From positions 1 through 64,000 of the forward strand of contig CAJTDK010000016.1 in the NCBI GenBank assembly GCA_910575105.1: a stretch of 64,000 bases of DNA, given 5' to 3'. A model generated the notes under the pieces. The model searched no databases, was not told the origin of the DNA, and saw nothing but the letters and a program-made list of their open reading frames with translations. A program made the position numbers and the translations under genes. Every line of letters starts with the position of its first letter. Within the stretch, counting starts at the first letter, position 1. The stretch is from Lachnospiraceae bacterium. Its GTDB lineage: Bacteria; Bacillota; Clostridia; Lachnospirales; Lachnospiraceae. Below, piece after piece: positions 45,796-54,175 of the stretch.

Positions 45796-45836
45796 AACAT
45801 GTATGTAATATATTGTCGCAGGAGGAAGCTATTGTA

Positions 45837-46844
45837 ATGAAAAGAAGAATATTTGCGGTGATGGCTGTTTTGCTCATCTGCATGGCAGGAATATGCGGAT
45901 GCAAGAAGCATGTCGGGACACCGGAGGACAATGCGGCTTCAGGTGAGGAAAGTAAGGACAGCGGTGAGGACGTACAGCAGGAGAAAAAGCTGATCGGGTT
46001 CAGCGTTATCGATATGAAAAATCCGTATTTTATTACGCTGGAGAATGCTGCAAGAGAAGCGGCTGAGAAGATGGGATATGAGCTTATGATGGAGGATCCG
46101 GGGACAGATCCCCAGGAGCAGGCACTGCAGATACAGGAGATGATCGATAAAGGTATCTCGGCCATTATCCTAAGCCCGGTAGACTGGGAGAAGATCACGC
46201 CGTCCCTTAAGGCCCTTAAGGAAGCGGGAGTCAGGATCATCAACGTGGATACACAGGTGAAGGAGATGGATTACGTGGACGCGTATATCGGCTCTGACAA
46301 TTACAATGCCGGGTATATCTGCGGGGAGGATCTGATCAGGCGGTGCCCGGAAGGGGGAAAGATCGCTATCCTGGAGTGTCCTACCCAGAATTCCATCAAT
46401 GACCGCATTACAGGCTTCGAGGAGGCGATAGCGAAGGCAGAGAAGGGCTTTGAGGTGGTGGCGAGGGCGGATACCACAGGAGAATTTGAACGTGCCCTGG
46501 AGGAGTCGGAGAAGATGCTTAAGGAGCATCCGGATATTGTCGCGATTATGTGCGGAAATGACCAGATCGCCGTGGGTGCGACCACGTCGGTGAATGTTGC
46601 GCGGGCGAAGGAGGTCTTAATCTATGGGGTGGACGGCTCTCCGGATATCAAGAAGGAGCTGCAGAAGTCCGATACCCAGATTGCCGGTACAGCGGCTCAG
46701 TCTCCGATCCATATCGGACAGGAGGCGGCGAAGATCGCAGACTGTATATTGACCGGACAGAAGTTCGAGAAGGAAACCTATGAAGAAGTATTTATGATCA
46801 ACAAGGATAATGTCGGTATGTATGGAGTGGATGGCTGGCAATAG
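45837..46844 (+). CDS. Sugar-binding lipoprotein (RbsB/GGBP type)
   Basis: A 335-residue secreted protein. Residues 1-20 form a lipoprotein signal (MAVLLICMAGICGCKK, lipid Cys near 21), then a short acidic linker, then a periplasmic-binding-protein type 1 fold: IGFSVIDMKNPYFITLENAA, EMIDKGISAIILSPVD, NVDTQVKEMDYVDAYIGSDN, MCGNDQIAVGATTSV, GVDGSPDIKKEL. It should bind a sugar for an ABC importer, but no permease or ATPase gene is nearby, so it is an orphan. GGAGGAA precedes the ATG. It lies 18 bases before the GH13-like gene. Confidence 0.88.
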   Translation: MKRRIFAVMAVLLICMAGICGCKKHVGTPEDNAASGEESKDSGEDVQQEKKLIGFSVIDMKNPYFITLENAAREAAEKMGYELMMEDPGTDPQEQALQIQEMIDKGISAIILSPVDWEKITPSLKALKEAGVRIINVDTQVKEMDYVDAYIGSDNYNAGYICGEDLIRRCPEGGKIAILECPTQNSINDRITGFEEAIAKAEKGFEVVARADTTGEFERALEESEKMLKEHPDIVAIMCGNDQIAVGATTSVNVARAKEVLIYGVDGSPDIKKELQKSDTQIAGTAAQSPIHIGQEAAKIADCILTGQKFEKETYEEVFMINKDNVGMYGVDGWQ

Positions 46845-46862: not shown

Positions 46863-48563
46863 ATGCGAAAGACACAGGGAAGACCAATACCGTTAGGAGT
46901 TACAGTGACAGGTAATGAGGTGAATTTCTCCGTGCCGGTTCCCGGGGGGAAGGAGTGCAGCCTTCTGTTATACCATCCGGGGAAGACTGTGCCCTGCGCG
47001 GCCTATCCGATGACAGACAGCGTCGGGGACGTGCGCTATATGGCATTAAGAGACATGGGGAAGAGATCCTATGAATATAATTATATGATCGACGGTGAAG
47101 TTGTGCCTGACCCTTATGCCAGAGCGCTGGCAGGGAAGGCGAGATGGGGCAGGAAGAAGGATGTCAGGGAGCACGAGGTGAGGGGCGTTATCTGCCGTGA
47201 GACCTATGACTGGGAAGGGGATGAGACACTGAAGCTCCCTTATCACCGGGTGGTCGCCTACAGTCTCCATATCAGGGGATTTACCAGGGATACGTCGTCA
47301 AAAGTGAAGAAAAAGGGATATTTTGAAGGGGTTGCAGAAAAGCTTCCCTATCTGAGGGAGTTAGGGATCAACCAGATCCACTGCATGCCGGTCTATGAGT
47401 TCGAGGAATGCGGGCTTAAGCGCAATTACTGGGGATACGGCAGGGCATACTGCTTTGCGCCCAAGAGCGCCTACGCGGCAGACGGCGACGGAGTCCGCTC
47501 GCTGAAGGACATGGTGAAGGCCTGCCATAAGGCGGGGATAGAGGTAGTCCTTGAGATGCCCTTTGACGACGGGACGCCGAAGCAGATGATGGAGGACTGC
47601 CTGCGCTATTATATGATGGAGTATCACATTGACGGCTTTATCCTGAATCCGTCGGTGGCGCCGATGGACGCGGTATGCCAGGATCCGTTCCTTAAGGGGA
47701 CGAAGATCATGCGCCACGAGACAGGCTTCCAGAACGGTATGCGTCGTTTCCTCAAAGGAGATGAGGGGATGGTTCCGGAGGTGATCTACTGGCTGCGCCA
47801 CTGCTCTAAAGATGACGGGACATTCAACTATATTGCGAATCATACGGGATTTACGCTGAATGACCTTGTCTCCTACGACAGCAAGCACAATGAGGCTAAC
47901 GGCGAGAACAACCAGGACGGGCCGGATTATAATTTTAGCTGGAACTGCGGGGCGGAAGGACCGAGCCGGAAAAAGGAGATCATGGCGTTAAGGAACAGGC
48001 AGATAAAAAATGCATTTCTTCTGACCCTTCTGGCCCAGGGGACACCGTGTATCTTAGCGGGTGATGAGTTCTACAATTCCCAGAAGGGGAATAATAATGT
48101 CTACTGTCAGGATAATCCGGTGGGCTGGGTGAACTGGGAGAGGCTTTTGAAGGAGCCGAAGCTTCATGATTTTGTAAAAAAGATCATCGGGATCCGCAAG
48201 ACTTACGGCGCGTTCTGTCCGAAGGAAGAGATGCTGGGGGCGGACCGTACAGGCTGCGGTGTGCCGGATGTGTCCTATCACGGGGAGAGTGCGTGGCGGG
48301 TGCCGTCAGAGGTGTCGAGCAGGCAGCTCGGCGTCTATTACAGCGGCGAATCCTACGGCGGGGAAGGCTGCTACGTTATCTATAACATGCACTGGCTTAC
48401 GCATACTTTTGCACTGCCTGCCCTTCCTAAGGAGAGAAAGTGGCATATTCTTGCCGCGACCGACGGTATCCCGGAGAGTGCGGAGCCGGTGAAGAATCAA
48501 AAATGTATCGAGGTGAAGGCCAGGACGATCGTGGTTCTGGCAGGTAGAGAATATGGGACTTAA
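46863..48563 (+). CDS. Isoamylase/GlgX-like GH13 protein lacking catalytic residues
   Basis: A 566-residue protein with an N-terminal CBM48-like domain (about 1-95: PIPLGVTVTGNEVNFSVPVP), then a GH13 barrel and a beta C-terminal domain. Flanking sequence is well kept (VVAYSLHIRGFTRD, LNDLVSYDSKHNEANGENNQ, FSWNCGAEG, LAQGTPCILAGDEF). The active-site motifs are not: region I is EMPFDD at 231-236 (usual DVVYNH), region II is GFILNPS at 258-264 (usual GFRFDLA, Asn 262 at the nucleophile), region III has no EPWD, and region IV is NHTGFT with Thr 328 (usual HDGFT). A pseudoenzyme binding or sensing alpha-glucan is likely. It overlaps the TraX-like gene by 11 bases. Confidence 0.85.
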   Translation: MRKTQGRPIPLGVTVTGNEVNFSVPVPGGKECSLLLYHPGKTVPCAAYPMTDSVGDVRYMALRDMGKRSYEYNYMIDGEVVPDPYARALAGKARWGRKKDVREHEVRGVICRETYDWEGDETLKLPYHRVVAYSLHIRGFTRDTSSKVKKKGYFEGVAEKLPYLRELGINQIHCMPVYEFEECGLKRNYWGYGRAYCFAPKSAYAADGDGVRSLKDMVKACHKAGIEVVLEMPFDDGTPKQMMEDCLRYYMMEYHIDGFILNPSVAPMDAVCQDPFLKGTKIMRHETGFQNGMRRFLKGDEGMVPEVIYWLRHCSKDDGTFNYIANHTGFTLNDLVSYDSKHNEANGENNQDGPDYNFSWNCGAEGPSRKKEIMALRNRQIKNAFLLTLLAQGTPCILAGDEFYNSQKGNNNVYCQDNPVGWVNWERLLKEPKLHDFVKKIIGIRKTYGAFCPKEEMLGADRTGCGVPDVSYHGESAWRVPSEVSSRQLGVYYSGESYGGEGCYVIYNMHWLTHTFALPALPKERKWHILAATDGIPESAEPVKNQKCIEVKARTIVVLAGREYGT

Positions 48564-49200
48564 TTCCTTTCAGTTAAAATGTATCGCTGTCATAACGATG
48601 ATCATTGACCACACGGGAGCGGTGCTGTTTCCGGGAGAGCTGATGTTTAGGTATATCGGAAGAATCTCCTTCCCGATTTTTTGTTTTCTGCTGACGGAGG
48701 GGTTCTTCCATACTAAGGATGTCAGGAAGTATATGCTGCGTCTGGGGATATTTGCGGTGGTATCCGAGATACCCTATGATCTGGCATTCCGGGGAACAGT
48801 GCTTGAATTTGAACATCAGAATGTATTTTTTACCCTGTTTATGGGCGTTGTGATGATGTATGCTTTGGAAAAGAGTGGGGAGTGGCAGGTAAAGGCGGTG
48901 GAAGTGTTTCTTGCGATGTGGGCCGCTGATCTTCTCTGCTCGGATTACCGGTTCAAGGGGATACTGCTCATAGCTGTCTACTATTTCTTCCGGGAGCGCA
49001 GATGGATAAAGCACGGGGCCGGGGCGGCCTGGAATCTGCTCTGGGGGCAGATTCAGATGTACGGGGCGCTGGCGACAGTCCCCCTTGCTTTCTATAACGG
49101 GGAAAAGGGGCCGTCTATGAAATATTTCTTCTATCTGTTCTATCCGGTGCACCTGCTTGCGCTGTATGTGATTAGCCAGTGCCTGCAGACGGTACAGTAG
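48553..49200 (+). CDS. TraX family membrane protein
   Basis: A 215-residue integral membrane protein with about seven hydrophobic segments, opening NSFQLKCIAVITMIIDHTGA then FRYIGRISFPIFCFLLTEGF. This is the TraX family, named for F-pilin acetylation but widespread in Firmicutes outside conjugation; it belongs to the acyltransferase-3-like membrane group. It probably O- or N-acylates a cell-surface molecule. The start lies within the end of the GH13-like gene, so translation is coupled; the shared operon with glucan-related proteins could suggest modification of a surface glycan. Confidence 0.85.
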   Translation: MGLNSFQLKCIAVITMIIDHTGAVLFPGELMFRYIGRISFPIFCFLLTEGFFHTKDVRKYMLRLGIFAVVSEIPYDLAFRGTVLEFEHQNVFFTLFMGVVMMYALEKSGEWQVKAVEVFLAMWAADLLCSDYRFKGILLIAVYYFFRERRWIKHGAGAAWNLLWGQIQMYGALATVPLAFYNGEKGPSMKYFFYLFYPVHLLALYVISQCLQTVQ

Positions 49201-49268: not shown

Positions 49269-49751
49269 ATGAGAAAAAGAATATTATCAATTACGCTTGC
49301 AATTCTATTAATGCTGACAGCAGCTAATGCGGGCAGTATTACGGCAGAAGCTGCAGGAAAAACAACGGTGTATGAGACAAATGCAATTTATATTACAAAG
49401 TTTCTGGAGTCAAAGGGGAAGCTGACTGTTAAAGCAAAACACTGGGGAAGTATAGCTGTCAAGGAGAAGAAGCGCAATAAAGGCTGGGTCAGGACAGCAG
49501 AAAGAGCATTGACAGGAAAATCTAAAGAACTGGGCGAAAAAAAGCTGACCTATAAGATTGCAAAAAACTGTAAATGGTCCTGGTGCGATACAGGGCGTAA
49601 CAGCGGGAAGTCCAGCTATTCCAGGATCCGGAAAAATGCAAAGCAGGCGAGAGAAGCTTTTTGTAAATATGGTGTAGATGCCAGCTATGGAGTGGTTCAA
49701 ATCTTTGTGAAGAATAAAAAAGTTGTCCGGGTAAATATATTTGGTTCATAA
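49269..49751 (+). CDS. Secreted hypothetical protein
   Basis: A 160-residue protein with a clear signal peptide (RKRILSITLAILLMLTAANA, cleavage near AEAAG). The mature part is strongly basic (TVKAKHWGSIAVKEKKRNKG) with two Trp-Cys-like segments (CKWSWCDTG) and one later Cys. I do not recognise a family. AAGGAGAG precedes the ATG. It stands between the TraX-like gene and the DUF5662 gene with gaps of 68 and 24 bases. Confidence 0.65.
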   Translation: MRKRILSITLAILLMLTAANAGSITAEAAGKTTVYETNAIYITKFLESKGKLTVKAKHWGSIAVKEKKRNKGWVRTAERALTGKSKELGEKKLTYKIAKNCKWSWCDTGRNSGKSSYSRIRKNAKQAREAFCKYGVDASYGVVQIFVKNKKVVRVNIFGS

Positions 49752-49775: not shown

Positions 49776-50405
49776 ATGAAGACATCAGGTCGTCTGCCTG
49801 CCGTCAACTGCAGCAAATTTTGGGGGCATTTACATACGATCAACCATCACAAATTATTAGTGATGAAGCACTGCTTCAAGGTAGGTTTATATAAGCAGGG
49901 ACTTCTTCATGATCTGTCCAAGTATTCCCCTACAGAATTCTTAGTGGGCTGCAAGTACTATCAGGGAACGAGAAGCCCGAATAATGCGGAGCGCGAGGCT
50001 ACAGGCTACTCCCGGGCGTGGCTCCATCACAAGGGCCGCAACAAGCATCACTATGAATACTGGATTGATTACAGCGTGAATAAGGAGGAGGGGATCGTAG
50101 GGCAGAAGATGCCGGTAAGATACGTGGTCGAGATGTTCATGGACCGGATAGCGGCGTCTAAGACTTACCAGGGCTGTGATTATACGGACAGGCATCCGCT
50201 GGAGTATTACGAGGACGGAGCCGGGAAGCTGGGCAGGATGATCCATCCGGAGACGGCGGCGCTGCTTCATTTTCTATTGAAGATGCTCGCCAGTGAAGGT
50301 GAGGAGAAGACGTTCCGGTACATTAAACGCCATGTTCTGGGAGGAAAGTGGCCGGGAGATAAGCGGATTTTGAGCCGGTCAGAGAGCGGGACAAAAAATA
50401 AATAA
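49776..50405 (+). CDS. DUF5662 family protein
   Basis: A 209-residue protein with FWGHLHTINHHKLLVMKHCF and GLLHDLSKYSPTEFLVG near the start, later WLHHKGRNKHHYEYWIDY and RYVVEMFMDRIAASKTYQG. The repeated His and HD residues resemble an HD-type metal site and fit DUF5662. The function is not known; hydrolase activity is an inference from the His/Asp pattern. AAAGGAG precedes the ATG. Confidence 0.75.
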   Translation: MKTSGRLPAVNCSKFWGHLHTINHHKLLVMKHCFKVGLYKQGLLHDLSKYSPTEFLVGCKYYQGTRSPNNAEREATGYSRAWLHHKGRNKHHYEYWIDYSVNKEEGIVGQKMPVRYVVEMFMDRIAASKTYQGCDYTDRHPLEYYEDGAGKLGRMIHPETAALLHFLLKMLASEGEEKTFRYIKRHVLGGKWPGDKRILSRSESGTKNK

Positions 50406-52179: not shown

Positions 52180-52210
52180 ACGGAGTCTGTTATGAATTGG
52201 AGTGGATGTT

Positions 52211-53737
52211 ATGGCGCAGGAAAACCGTAAGTATATCGCGATCGATCTGAAATCCTTCTATGCCTCCGTAGAATGTGTGGAGAGGGGGTTAGACCCTATG
52301 ACGACGAATCTGGTCGTCGCCGATCTTAGCCGCACGGAGAAGACGATCTGCCTCGCTGTGTCCCCGTCCCTGAAAGCCTACGGGATATCGGGGCGGGCGA
52401 GACTTTTCGAGGTGATTCAGAAGGTAAAGGAAGTGAATGCAAAGCGTCAGGAGCTTGCGCCGGGACGAAGGCTTGAGGGAGCCTCATGGGACGATGTCAT
52501 GCTTAAGGCTTCCCCAAAGCTCTCTCTTGACTATATCGTTGCTCCTCCCAGGATGGCGCATTACATCCGGTACAGCACAAAGATCTATGAGATATATCTG
52601 AACTATGTGGCTCCGGAGGACTGTCATGTATATTCGATCGACGAGATCATGATGGATGTGACGGACTACCTGAACACCTATCAGCTAACGCCCCGGGAGC
52701 TGGCGGGAAAGATCATGCAGGATATCCACGCCGCCACGGGGATCACGGCTACGGCGGGCATCGGGACGAACCTATATCTGTGCAAGGTCGCCATGGATAT
52801 CGTAGCAAAGCATATCCCGCCGGATAAGAACGGGGTGCGGATCGCATCGCTGAATGAGAAAAGCTACCGGCGGATCTTGTGGAGCCACCGGCCGATCACG
52901 GATTTCTGGCGCGTGGGGAAGGGCTATGCAAAGAAGCTTTCGGAGCAGGGTATATTTACCATGGGAGACGTGGCAAGATGCTCGGTGGGAAAGCCGGATG
53001 AATACTACAACGAAGACCTGCTCTACCGGATGTTCGGGGTCAACGCGGAGCTTTTGATCGACCATGCATGGGGCTATGAGCCATGCACCATGGCGCAGAT
53101 CAAGGCTTACCGGCCCAAGGACAACAGCGTTGTGTCCGGCCAGGTGCTCCACTGCCCTTATACGGCGGCCAAGGCAAGGATCGTCGTCCGGGAGATGGCG
53201 GAGATGCTTGCTCTTGATCTGGTGGCCAAGCGGCTGGTGACAGACCAGATTGTGCTGACGGCTGGCTACGATATGGAGAATCTGTCATCTCCTGGGGCGG
53301 CAGATTATCAAGGAGAGACCACCACAGACCGGTACGGGCGCAGGATTCCGAAGCACGCCCACGGCACGGCGAATCTGGGGGAGCATACTTCCTCCGGGAA
53401 AATGATCGTAGATGCAGTTCTGGGGCTGTACGACAGGATCATTGACCAGAACCTGCTGGTCAGAAGGATATCCCTGGGCGCCAACCATGTGACGGATGAA
53501 CATGCGGCAAAGACAGAGCCGTCCTTCGAGCAGCTTGACCTGTTCACGGATTATGCCGCACTGGAAAAGGAGCAGGAGACGAAAAAGGCAGAGCGTGACC
53601 GGGAGCGGAAGCTTCAGGAGGTCATGTTGGAGATTAAAAAAAAGTATGGGAAAAATGCCGTCTTAAAAGGAACGAATCTGATCGAAGGCGCCACCGCTAT
53701 GGAACGGAATCAGCAGATCGGCGGACACAAGGCATAG
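52211..53737 (+). CDS. Y-family DNA polymerase (UmuC/ImpB type)
   Basis: A 508-residue translesion polymerase. YIAIDLKSFYASVECVERGL holds the first metal Asp; VYSIDEIMMDVTDYL holds the SIDE motif with the catalytic Asp-Glu; then AGIGTNLYLCKVAMDIVAKH and a little-finger domain. Compared with DinB it is longer, with a C-terminal tail rich in Lys and Glu. It bypasses damaged template bases at low fidelity. The ATG at 52211 has GGAG upstream. The gene following encodes the YolD-like protein normally paired with this polymerase type. Confidence 0.88.
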   Translation: MAQENRKYIAIDLKSFYASVECVERGLDPMTTNLVVADLSRTEKTICLAVSPSLKAYGISGRARLFEVIQKVKEVNAKRQELAPGRRLEGASWDDVMLKASPKLSLDYIVAPPRMAHYIRYSTKIYEIYLNYVAPEDCHVYSIDEIMMDVTDYLNTYQLTPRELAGKIMQDIHAATGITATAGIGTNLYLCKVAMDIVAKHIPPDKNGVRIASLNEKSYRRILWSHRPITDFWRVGKGYAKKLSEQGIFTMGDVARCSVGKPDEYYNEDLLYRMFGVNAELLIDHAWGYEPCTMAQIKAYRPKDNSVVSGQVLHCPYTAAKARIVVREMAEMLALDLVAKRLVTDQIVLTAGYDMENLSSPGAADYQGETTTDRYGRRIPKHAHGTANLGEHTSSGKMIVDAVLGLYDRIIDQNLLVRRISLGANHVTDEHAAKTEPSFEQLDLFTDYAALEKEQETKKAERDRERKLQEVMLEIKKKYGKNAVLKGTNLIEGATAMERNQQIGGHKA

Positions 53738-53752
53738 AAAGGGGAGGAAGAG

Positions 53753-54175
53753 ATGTTAGCGTTCAATCACGAGGAGAGACACCGGTACGATGATATCATC
53801 GATCTCCCCCATCATGTGTCAAAGACGCACCCGCAGATGCCGCTTTCTGACCGGGCGGCACAGTTCGCGCCTTTTGCGGCGCTGACCGCCCACGGGGAGG
53901 CGGTGAAGGAGACTGCGCGGCTGACTGATGAGAGGATTGAGATTGACGAGGACTGCAGGGCGGCCCTTGACCTGAAGCTTCTGCAGATACACAGACAGCA
54001 GGATACCCATCCTTCTGCCACCATCACCTACTTTGTCCCGGACAGACAGAAGACCGGAGGCGCCTATGTAGAGACCGTCGGGCGCGTAAAAAAGATAGAT
54101 GAATACGAAAGGGCAGTGATCCTTACCGACGGGACAAAGATACCTGCCGACGAGATCATCGACATCGTCCTGTGA
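53753..54175 (+). CDS. YolD-like protein, partner of the Y-family polymerase
   Basis: A 140-residue protein with the YolD-type signature YDDIIDLPHHVSKTHPQMPL followed by SDRAAQFAPFAALTAHGEAV and LTDERIEIDE. Its C-terminal half (VGRVKKIDEYERAVILTDGT) is a small beta domain. YolD-like proteins are encoded next to UmuC-type polymerases in Firmicutes and are thought to help like UmuD; the mechanism is not settled. GGGGAGG lies before the ATG, 15 bases after the polymerase stop. Confidence 0.85.
   Translation: MLAFNHEERHRYDDIIDLPHHVSKTHPQMPLSDRAAQFAPFAALTAHGEAVKETARLTDERIEIDEDCRAALDLKLLQIHRQQDTHPSATITYFVPDRQKTGGAYVETVGRVKKIDEYERAVILTDGTKIPADEIIDIVL

Follow-up and report, generated by a model that had tools for sequence, protein, structure and literature searches.

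A GlgX-derived protein kept across Lachnospiraceae without its catalytic triad, a candidate alpha-glucan-binding pseudoenzyme

The DNA analyzed here (the window, 64,000 nucleotides) lies on contig 16 of the 4.24 Mb genome of a Lachnospiraceae bacterium. We focused on one of its genes, PGX, which encodes a relative of the debranching enzyme GlgX (GH13_11) that has lost the catalytic triad. The open reading frame (ORF) runs uninterrupted from an ATG and has ggaaaggagaaag just upstream, in agreement with a preliminary description of an intact frame with a good ribosome site. The gene and its altered active-site positions are as follows.

46863..48563, + strand: PGX, GlgX-derived (GH13_11) putative pseudoenzyme of 566 amino acids (ORF, motif comparison, AlphaFold model)
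47553..47570, + strand: degenerate region I, EMPFDD (canonical DVVFNH), amino acids 231-236 (sequence, alignment)
47577..47582, + strand: junction of a ~45-residue deletion, placed between P239 and K240 (alignment to canonical GlgX)
47646..47648, + strand: codon of N262, at the nucleophile position after barrel strand 4 (alignment, model)
47715..47717, + strand: codon of H285, at the acid/base Glu position after barrel strand 5 (alignment, model)
47841..47846, + strand: H327-T328, replacing the region IV His-Asp (sequence alignment)

The changed motifs had already been listed in the preliminary description, and all are present in the sequence: EMPFDD in region I, N262 following GFIL, T328 in a region IV that reads NHTGFT, and the LNDLVSYDSKHNEANGENNQ...FSWNCG stretch. 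Neither EPWD nor EAWD occurs in the window protein. We placed the residues on an AlphaFold model (mean predicted local distance difference test score, pLDDT, 79.1; predicted template modeling score, pTM, 0.82). Strands are modeled at 227-231, 258-261 and 281-284. Because the last two end at 261 and 284, N262 and H285 stand directly after barrel strands 4 and 5. The region IV strand is hardly formed (321-322), and the position of T328 is thus taken from the sequence alignment.

We compared PGX with known families. It scored 315.9 bits (E 4e-94) against the NCBIfam GlgX equivalog model, below the cut-off of 640.9, so by score it is not assigned GlgX function. Sequence and fold similarity across the N-terminal, barrel and C-terminal domains indicate GH13_11 descent, and the best sequence matches in the PDB are catalytic ISA1, TreX and GlgX, not ISA2. 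Pfam matched the alpha-amylase barrel only in part. The CBM48-like domain, described earlier as kept, is homologous to the N-terminal domain of GlgX and its strands are covered by fold matches, but the window protein has no Pfam CBM_48 match at E ≤ 0.1; among 23 aligned relatives, the window protein included, six match CBM_48 (E ≤ 0.01). Since a canonical GlgX of 703 amino acids, with DVVFNHT, GFRFDLAS, EAWD and HD, is encoded elsewhere in the same genome (G000:C4:17493-19601; L058:3494-5602), PGX represents an additional GlgX copy that has diverged.

Our comparison set of 132 ORFs, minus three near-duplicates, comprised 89 PGX and 40 canonical GlgX. Regions I and II are separated by 30-31 residues in every PGX and by 75-77 in every canonical GlgX, which by alignment is a single shared loop deletion of ~45 residues in all 89 PGX. 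The claim that PGX keeps the full length is thus not upheld (canonical GlgX has ~700 amino acids). Median stop-to-stop lengths are 635 residues for PGX and 717 for canonical GlgX, and the subclade of the window protein (14 tree rows) is shorter still, at 562-602.

No PGX has all three residues of the catalytic triad, as had been proposed for the window protein, and on this count none is expected to act as a catalytic GlgX. The nucleophile Asp is missing from 88 of 89 (counted ungapped at G+4; the automatic alignment gapped that column in all 89 PGX). The acid/base Glu is kept in 13, the region IV Asp in 14 and both in two, and 63 PGX have none of the triad residues (64 without counting the Asp of L018). 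L018:1489-3252 is the sole PGX with the nucleophile Asp (GFVLDEW); its Glu, region I and loop are gone. The Arg of region II survives in 13 of 89; its loss goes together with that of the NxN loop, the nucleophile and the His of region I. Of the 163 columns conserved at ≥95% in canonical GlgX, 68 remain at ≥85% in PGX and 63 fall below 30%, 57 of the latter within 231-328. What sets PGX apart from GlgX and TreX (GH13_11) is thus the loss of the triad, of the His in region I, of the loop between strand 3 and helix 3 and, in most members, of the region II Arg.

It is conceivable that PGX still hydrolyzes or transfers alpha-1,6-glucan via a rearranged active site, and the occasional Glu and Asp speak for this. 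So does the finding that PGX is the sole GlgX-type or type I pullulanase (PulA) candidate in 20 of the 60 Lachnospiraceae genomes that we searched (family f1, hereafter family genomes), although these 20 may use other debranching families. We rate continued activity as very improbable given the joint loss of so many catalytic groups, and because PGX surpasses canonical GlgX in conservation at just three acidic positions, E348, D461 and D469, the last two of which belong to the C-terminal motif.

All 89 PGX fall on one side of a single branch of the tree, with support 100. The lost motifs could themselves produce such a grouping, so we repeated the tree without the region I-IV columns and again obtained one branch with support 100 (FastTree, 129 rows; mixture model, 50 rows). 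Judged by alignment, these trees show that PGX arose once from GlgX. A scan of named contigs gave at least 592 relatives, of which the 80 best were retained. The PGX rows of the tree are mostly Lachnospiraceae by name. Some are labeled just Bacillota or are unplaced, and they include one Clostridium sp. and one Eubacterium sp. record; none in the tree is placed outside Bacillota.

PGX is under purifying selection within the genus of the window, with a ratio of nonsynonymous to synonymous substitution rates (dN/dS) of ~0.1. Frames are open through the motif region in the 89 PGX, a few being ended by contig edges, and many alignment columns are invariant. In the majority of 20-residue blocks canonical GlgX is the better conserved of the two, and PGX is patchily absent, both of which might be expected of a decaying, functionless GlgX copy. 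The open frames, the dN/dS and the presence of PGX in 49 of 60 family genomes refute that reading, to which we give practically no chance. The losses are therefore not peculiar to one genome's decaying copy, and the earlier argument for selection stands. The retention of the same non-catalytic version across Lachnospiraceae suggests a useful role other than cutting.

We searched 98 genomes, 60 from the family and 38 of the same order outside it. The window protein matched in 58 of them at E ≤ 1e-30, and PGX was found in the 49 family genomes after canonical GlgX had been set apart by ORF and motif. None of the 38 outside genomes has PGX; the six with matches, classed by score and not by motif, all scored far higher with canonical GlgX. 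In a class-wide draw of 196 genomes (E ≤ 1e-120), PGX-level scores (703-882 bits) occurred in four of the six family genomes listed, three of these matches being new and assigned by score only, and the remaining 190 genomes had no match at this threshold.

The tree of rpoB covers 51 genomes (nine of the 60 lacked a usable rpoB stretch) and keeps G048, whose branch of ~10 is probably a wrong or frameshifted reading. It requires eight changes of PGX presence, six on starred branches, and does not separate loss from gain. Of the 11 genomes without PGX, three are <90% complete as assembled (G011, G025, G035), and G026, whose contig starts at TraX, may be a false absence. In L188:1-10001 (G009) the order is GltX-UvrD-DUF1292-DUF5662-TrpS with PGX cleanly missing, although canonical GlgX is still encoded in this genome. 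Because PGX has one origin and L188 has an empty syntenic place, we read the absences mainly as losses, for which the rpoB tree alone would be insufficient.

Canonical GlgX, called at E ≤ 1e-60, is present in 23 of 60 family genomes, some of the GlgX-less assemblies being incomplete. The sole match in G029 was its own PGX and was not scored as GlgX. PGX and GlgX occur together in 20 family genomes, PGX alone in 29, GlgX alone in three and neither in eight (Fisher p 0.51), which shows that the two occur independently. Under a strict ISA1/ISA2 model, PGX would serve canonical GlgX as its dedicated non-catalytic subunit. Such pairing has a precedent in plant ISA2, which, according to excerpts of PMC12510319, has lost its catalytic residues, carries an additional N-terminal beta-sandwich, pairs with catalytic ISA1 and has a non-catalytic effect on polyglucan structure. 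The 20 genomes with both proteins, that of the window among them, would also allow it. We nevertheless consider this model improbable and reject GlgX as an obligate partner as a general rule, since 29 of 49 PGX genomes have no catalytic isoamylase partner at the threshold used and 20 of 49, some of them incomplete assemblies, have neither GlgX nor type I pullulanase.

Other glucan enzymes were considered. Type I pullulanase, present in 14 of 49 PGX genomes and in one of 11 PGX-less family genomes (p 0.26), was rejected as a partner. Of the 98 genomes, 85 have GlgA above the cut-off and 90 have GlgC; both are present with and without PGX and are uninformative as discriminators. A good GlgA match is missing from one PGX genome, G047, and a good GlgC match from another, G038.

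The C-terminal motif and the residues that correspond to glucan contacts in Streptomyces venezuelae GlgX are as follows, with the S. venezuelae numbering taken from an alignment and shifted by an offset of 3, as the region IV His-Asp suggests.

47430..47438, + strand: W190-G-Y192, equivalents of contacts Trp222 and Tyr224 (alignment)
47904..47906, + strand: codon of E348, equivalent of glucan contact Glu470 (alignment)
48096..48104, + strand: N412-V-Y414, equivalents of glucan contacts Asn534 and Tyr536 (alignment)
48264..48296, + strand: C-terminal motif PDVSYHGESAW (alignment)

The W190 and N412 positions hold Trp and Asn, respectively, in all 89 PGX. The Y192 position is Tyr in 80 and Phe in 9, and the Y414 position is Tyr in 87. 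At the E348 position, Glu is found in 88 of 89 PGX and 22 of 40 canonical GlgX. The other 18 canonical proteins (e.g., L058:3494-5602), mostly from Clostridia including Lachnospiraceae, have Trp there, a possible specificity change in active GlgX. In 20-residue blocks, the clearest conservation excess of PGX over canonical GlgX lies at 461-480. A comparison of 49 PGX with one canonical protein had marked E348 and PDxSxHGxxAW as specific to the family; this was dropped, as many of the 40 canonical GlgX share them. Excerpts of PMC9530166 describe a Streptomyces GlgX that binds cyclic di-GMP through an ExR(X)6R motif plus Arg438 and Arg579.

We give about even chances to the reading that PGX is a non-catalytic alpha-glucan-binding pseudoenzyme that likely regulates or targets enzymes of maltodextrin or glycogen metabolism. 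Comparison with GlgX shows what an early Lachnospiraceae copy lost: the loop joining strand 3 to helix 3, the nucleophile Asp and the majority of the remaining catalytic groups of subsite -1. The crippled copy has since been held by purifying selection, as shown for the genus of the window. In the model PGX keeps the GlgX scaffold, and it retains residues with which active GlgX grips alpha-glucan around the cleavage site. From these residues we infer alpha-glucan binding, and the glucan-sensing or scaffold role proposed earlier fits them. PGX would most likely bind alpha-1,4/1,6-glucan chains in the cytosol and act via protein contacts, tethering or adjusting enzymes such as phosphorylase, much as non-catalytic plant ISA2 modifies ISA1 complexes. 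It does not need canonical GlgX, because most PGX genomes have none at the threshold used.

A second, short phosphorylase, a class of 862-934 bits separated by score alone, occurs in 33 of the 49 genomes with PGX but in one of the 11 family genomes without it (p 0.0005). Among the 98 genomes this score band occurs only in family genomes (e.g., L252:2921-5185, L255:2918-5188), and in G010 the adjoining gene is MalQ-like. On the rpoB tree the association is far from significant (2.3 independent pairs in the same direction, 0.1 in the opposite), so we treat the maltodextrin link as a lead and not as a result.

Further observations also weigh against a glucan-binding role. Two PGX genomes (G012, G046) have no phosphorylase match at all, and no glycogen gene was recognized among the recurrent neighbor clusters of 87 PGX loci. 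Four of ten contact or catalytic positions conserved at ≥95% in canonical GlgX are kept, which is the background level of the 163 columns, and among the contact positions only E348 exceeds it. The N-terminal CBM48-like part is strongly diverged. As pLDDT is <50 at 181-200 and 408-416, where several contacts lie, the model does not establish an intact glucan site. PGX is missing from 11 of 60 family genomes in a pattern that is patchy on the rpoB tree, and this, with the clean syntenic gap in L188, implies that it is dispensable.

The genes around PGX in the window include the following.

45813..46844, + strand: orphan RbsB-like sugar-binding lipoprotein, listed from a TTG (ORF, Pfam/NCBIfam); the start may be an internal ATG at 45837
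48553..49200, + strand: TraX-family membrane protein (ORF, Pfam)
49776..50405, + strand: DUF5662 protein (ORF, Pfam)

The lipoprotein gene ends 18 bases upstream of PGX and the TraX gene overlaps PGX by 11 bases, as first described. We surveyed 87 PGX loci with wider flanks, 83 of which have a downstream gene; neighbor clusters were named from sequence except for those scanned with Pfam. The next gene is on the same strand as PGX in 69 of 83 loci and encodes TraX in 25 and DUF5662 in 33. When the first possible start codon is taken, 44 of the 58 PGX-TraX or PGX-DUF5662 junctions measure between -20 and +30 bases. The most frequent downstream neighbor is DUF5662 (within +3 in 50 of 87 loci). 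On the upstream side, 31 loci have a UvrD-like helicase no farther away than -3, and 30 have GltX no farther than -4. DUF5662 was rejected as an obligate partner because it is present in seven of 11 PGX-less family genomes as well as in 40 of 49 PGX genomes. Fourteen of the 87 loci have the lipoprotein at -1, every one in the subclade of the window protein, and it is a partner candidate there only. The three-gene order recurs in nine of the 13 lipoprotein loci with a downstream gene, thus within that subclade alone.

A simple hydropathy scan found no hydrophobic stretch in the first 45 residues of any of 87 PGX. PGX looks like a soluble, cytosolic GlgX derivative and should be across the membrane from the lipoprotein. 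The surface-modification link suggested in the preliminary description is therefore weak and not supported as a general feature, given this predicted location, the restricted lipoprotein, the minority of loci with TraX next to PGX, and the presence of TraX in seven of seven PGX-less family genomes (37 family genomes covered). PGX could instead sense a non-glucan ligand, or serve TraX as a structural partner or chaperone, as 4F2hc does for its transporter. The 4F2hc/rBAT heavy chains are GH13-like, non-catalytic, membrane-anchored ectodomains of animal transporters, whereas PGX appears soluble. We regard such a role as unlikely, since 58 of 83 loci lack TraX at +1 and TraX is also found without PGX.

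At 49269-49751 (+), between TraX and DUF5662, lies the gene of a Lys-rich protein of 160 residues that begins like a signal peptide and that neither Pfam nor NCBIfam matches. In loci L141-L145, from the same genus, no ORF was called in the corresponding position.

For PGX as a non-catalytic glucan-binding protein, plant ISA2 (GH13_11) is the nearest working model. In both, the nucleophile is lost, throughout the PGX family apart from L018. PGX differs from ISA2 in its loop deletion and in often having no canonical GlgX in the genome. The two are probably of separate origin, and the likeness is one of function at most. GlgD, the regulatory paralogue of GlgC, has another fold and acts at another pathway step than GlgX, and the distribution of GlgC (90 of 98 genomes) differs from that of canonical GlgX (23 of 60 family genomes). 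Regulatory GlgD beside catalytic GlgC is a precedent in bacterial glycogen metabolism (excerpts of PMC10395257). The same excerpts report two glgX homologues in Blautia obeum, one of which could be PGX, and passages of PMC11046441 treat GlgX as an active enzyme. We found no description of a non-catalytic bacterial GlgX in the literature searched, which left out supplements and subscription papers. We rate PGX as a new case of a known kind, the GH13_11 pseudoenzyme.

A fuller version of this reading is possible, if doubtful. PGX would be the first bacterial non-catalytic isoamylase, a cytosolic Lachnospiraceae alpha-glucan receptor that reports on or shapes the glycogen or maltodextrin pool. 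It would have arisen once from GlgX with the shared loop deletion and have no canonical GlgX partner, and in the subclade of the window protein it would share one operon with the orphan extracellular sugar-binding lipoprotein and mostly TraX. If true, this would be the second case, after plant ISA2, of a debranching enzyme kept after catalysis was removed, and the purpose of a non-catalytic isoamylase could be tested in a bacterium by deleting one gene. Lachnospiraceae are abundant in the gut. Should PGX be catalytically dead, similarity-based surveys of GlgX may count it as a debranching enzyme; NCBI's GlgX model would not, as PGX scores under its cut-off. The family genomes in which PGX is the only candidate raise the question of their glycogen debranching route.

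Further along the window, at 52202-54175 (+), lie two adjoining ORFs whose products resemble a UmuC-like DNA polymerase of the Y family and YolD.
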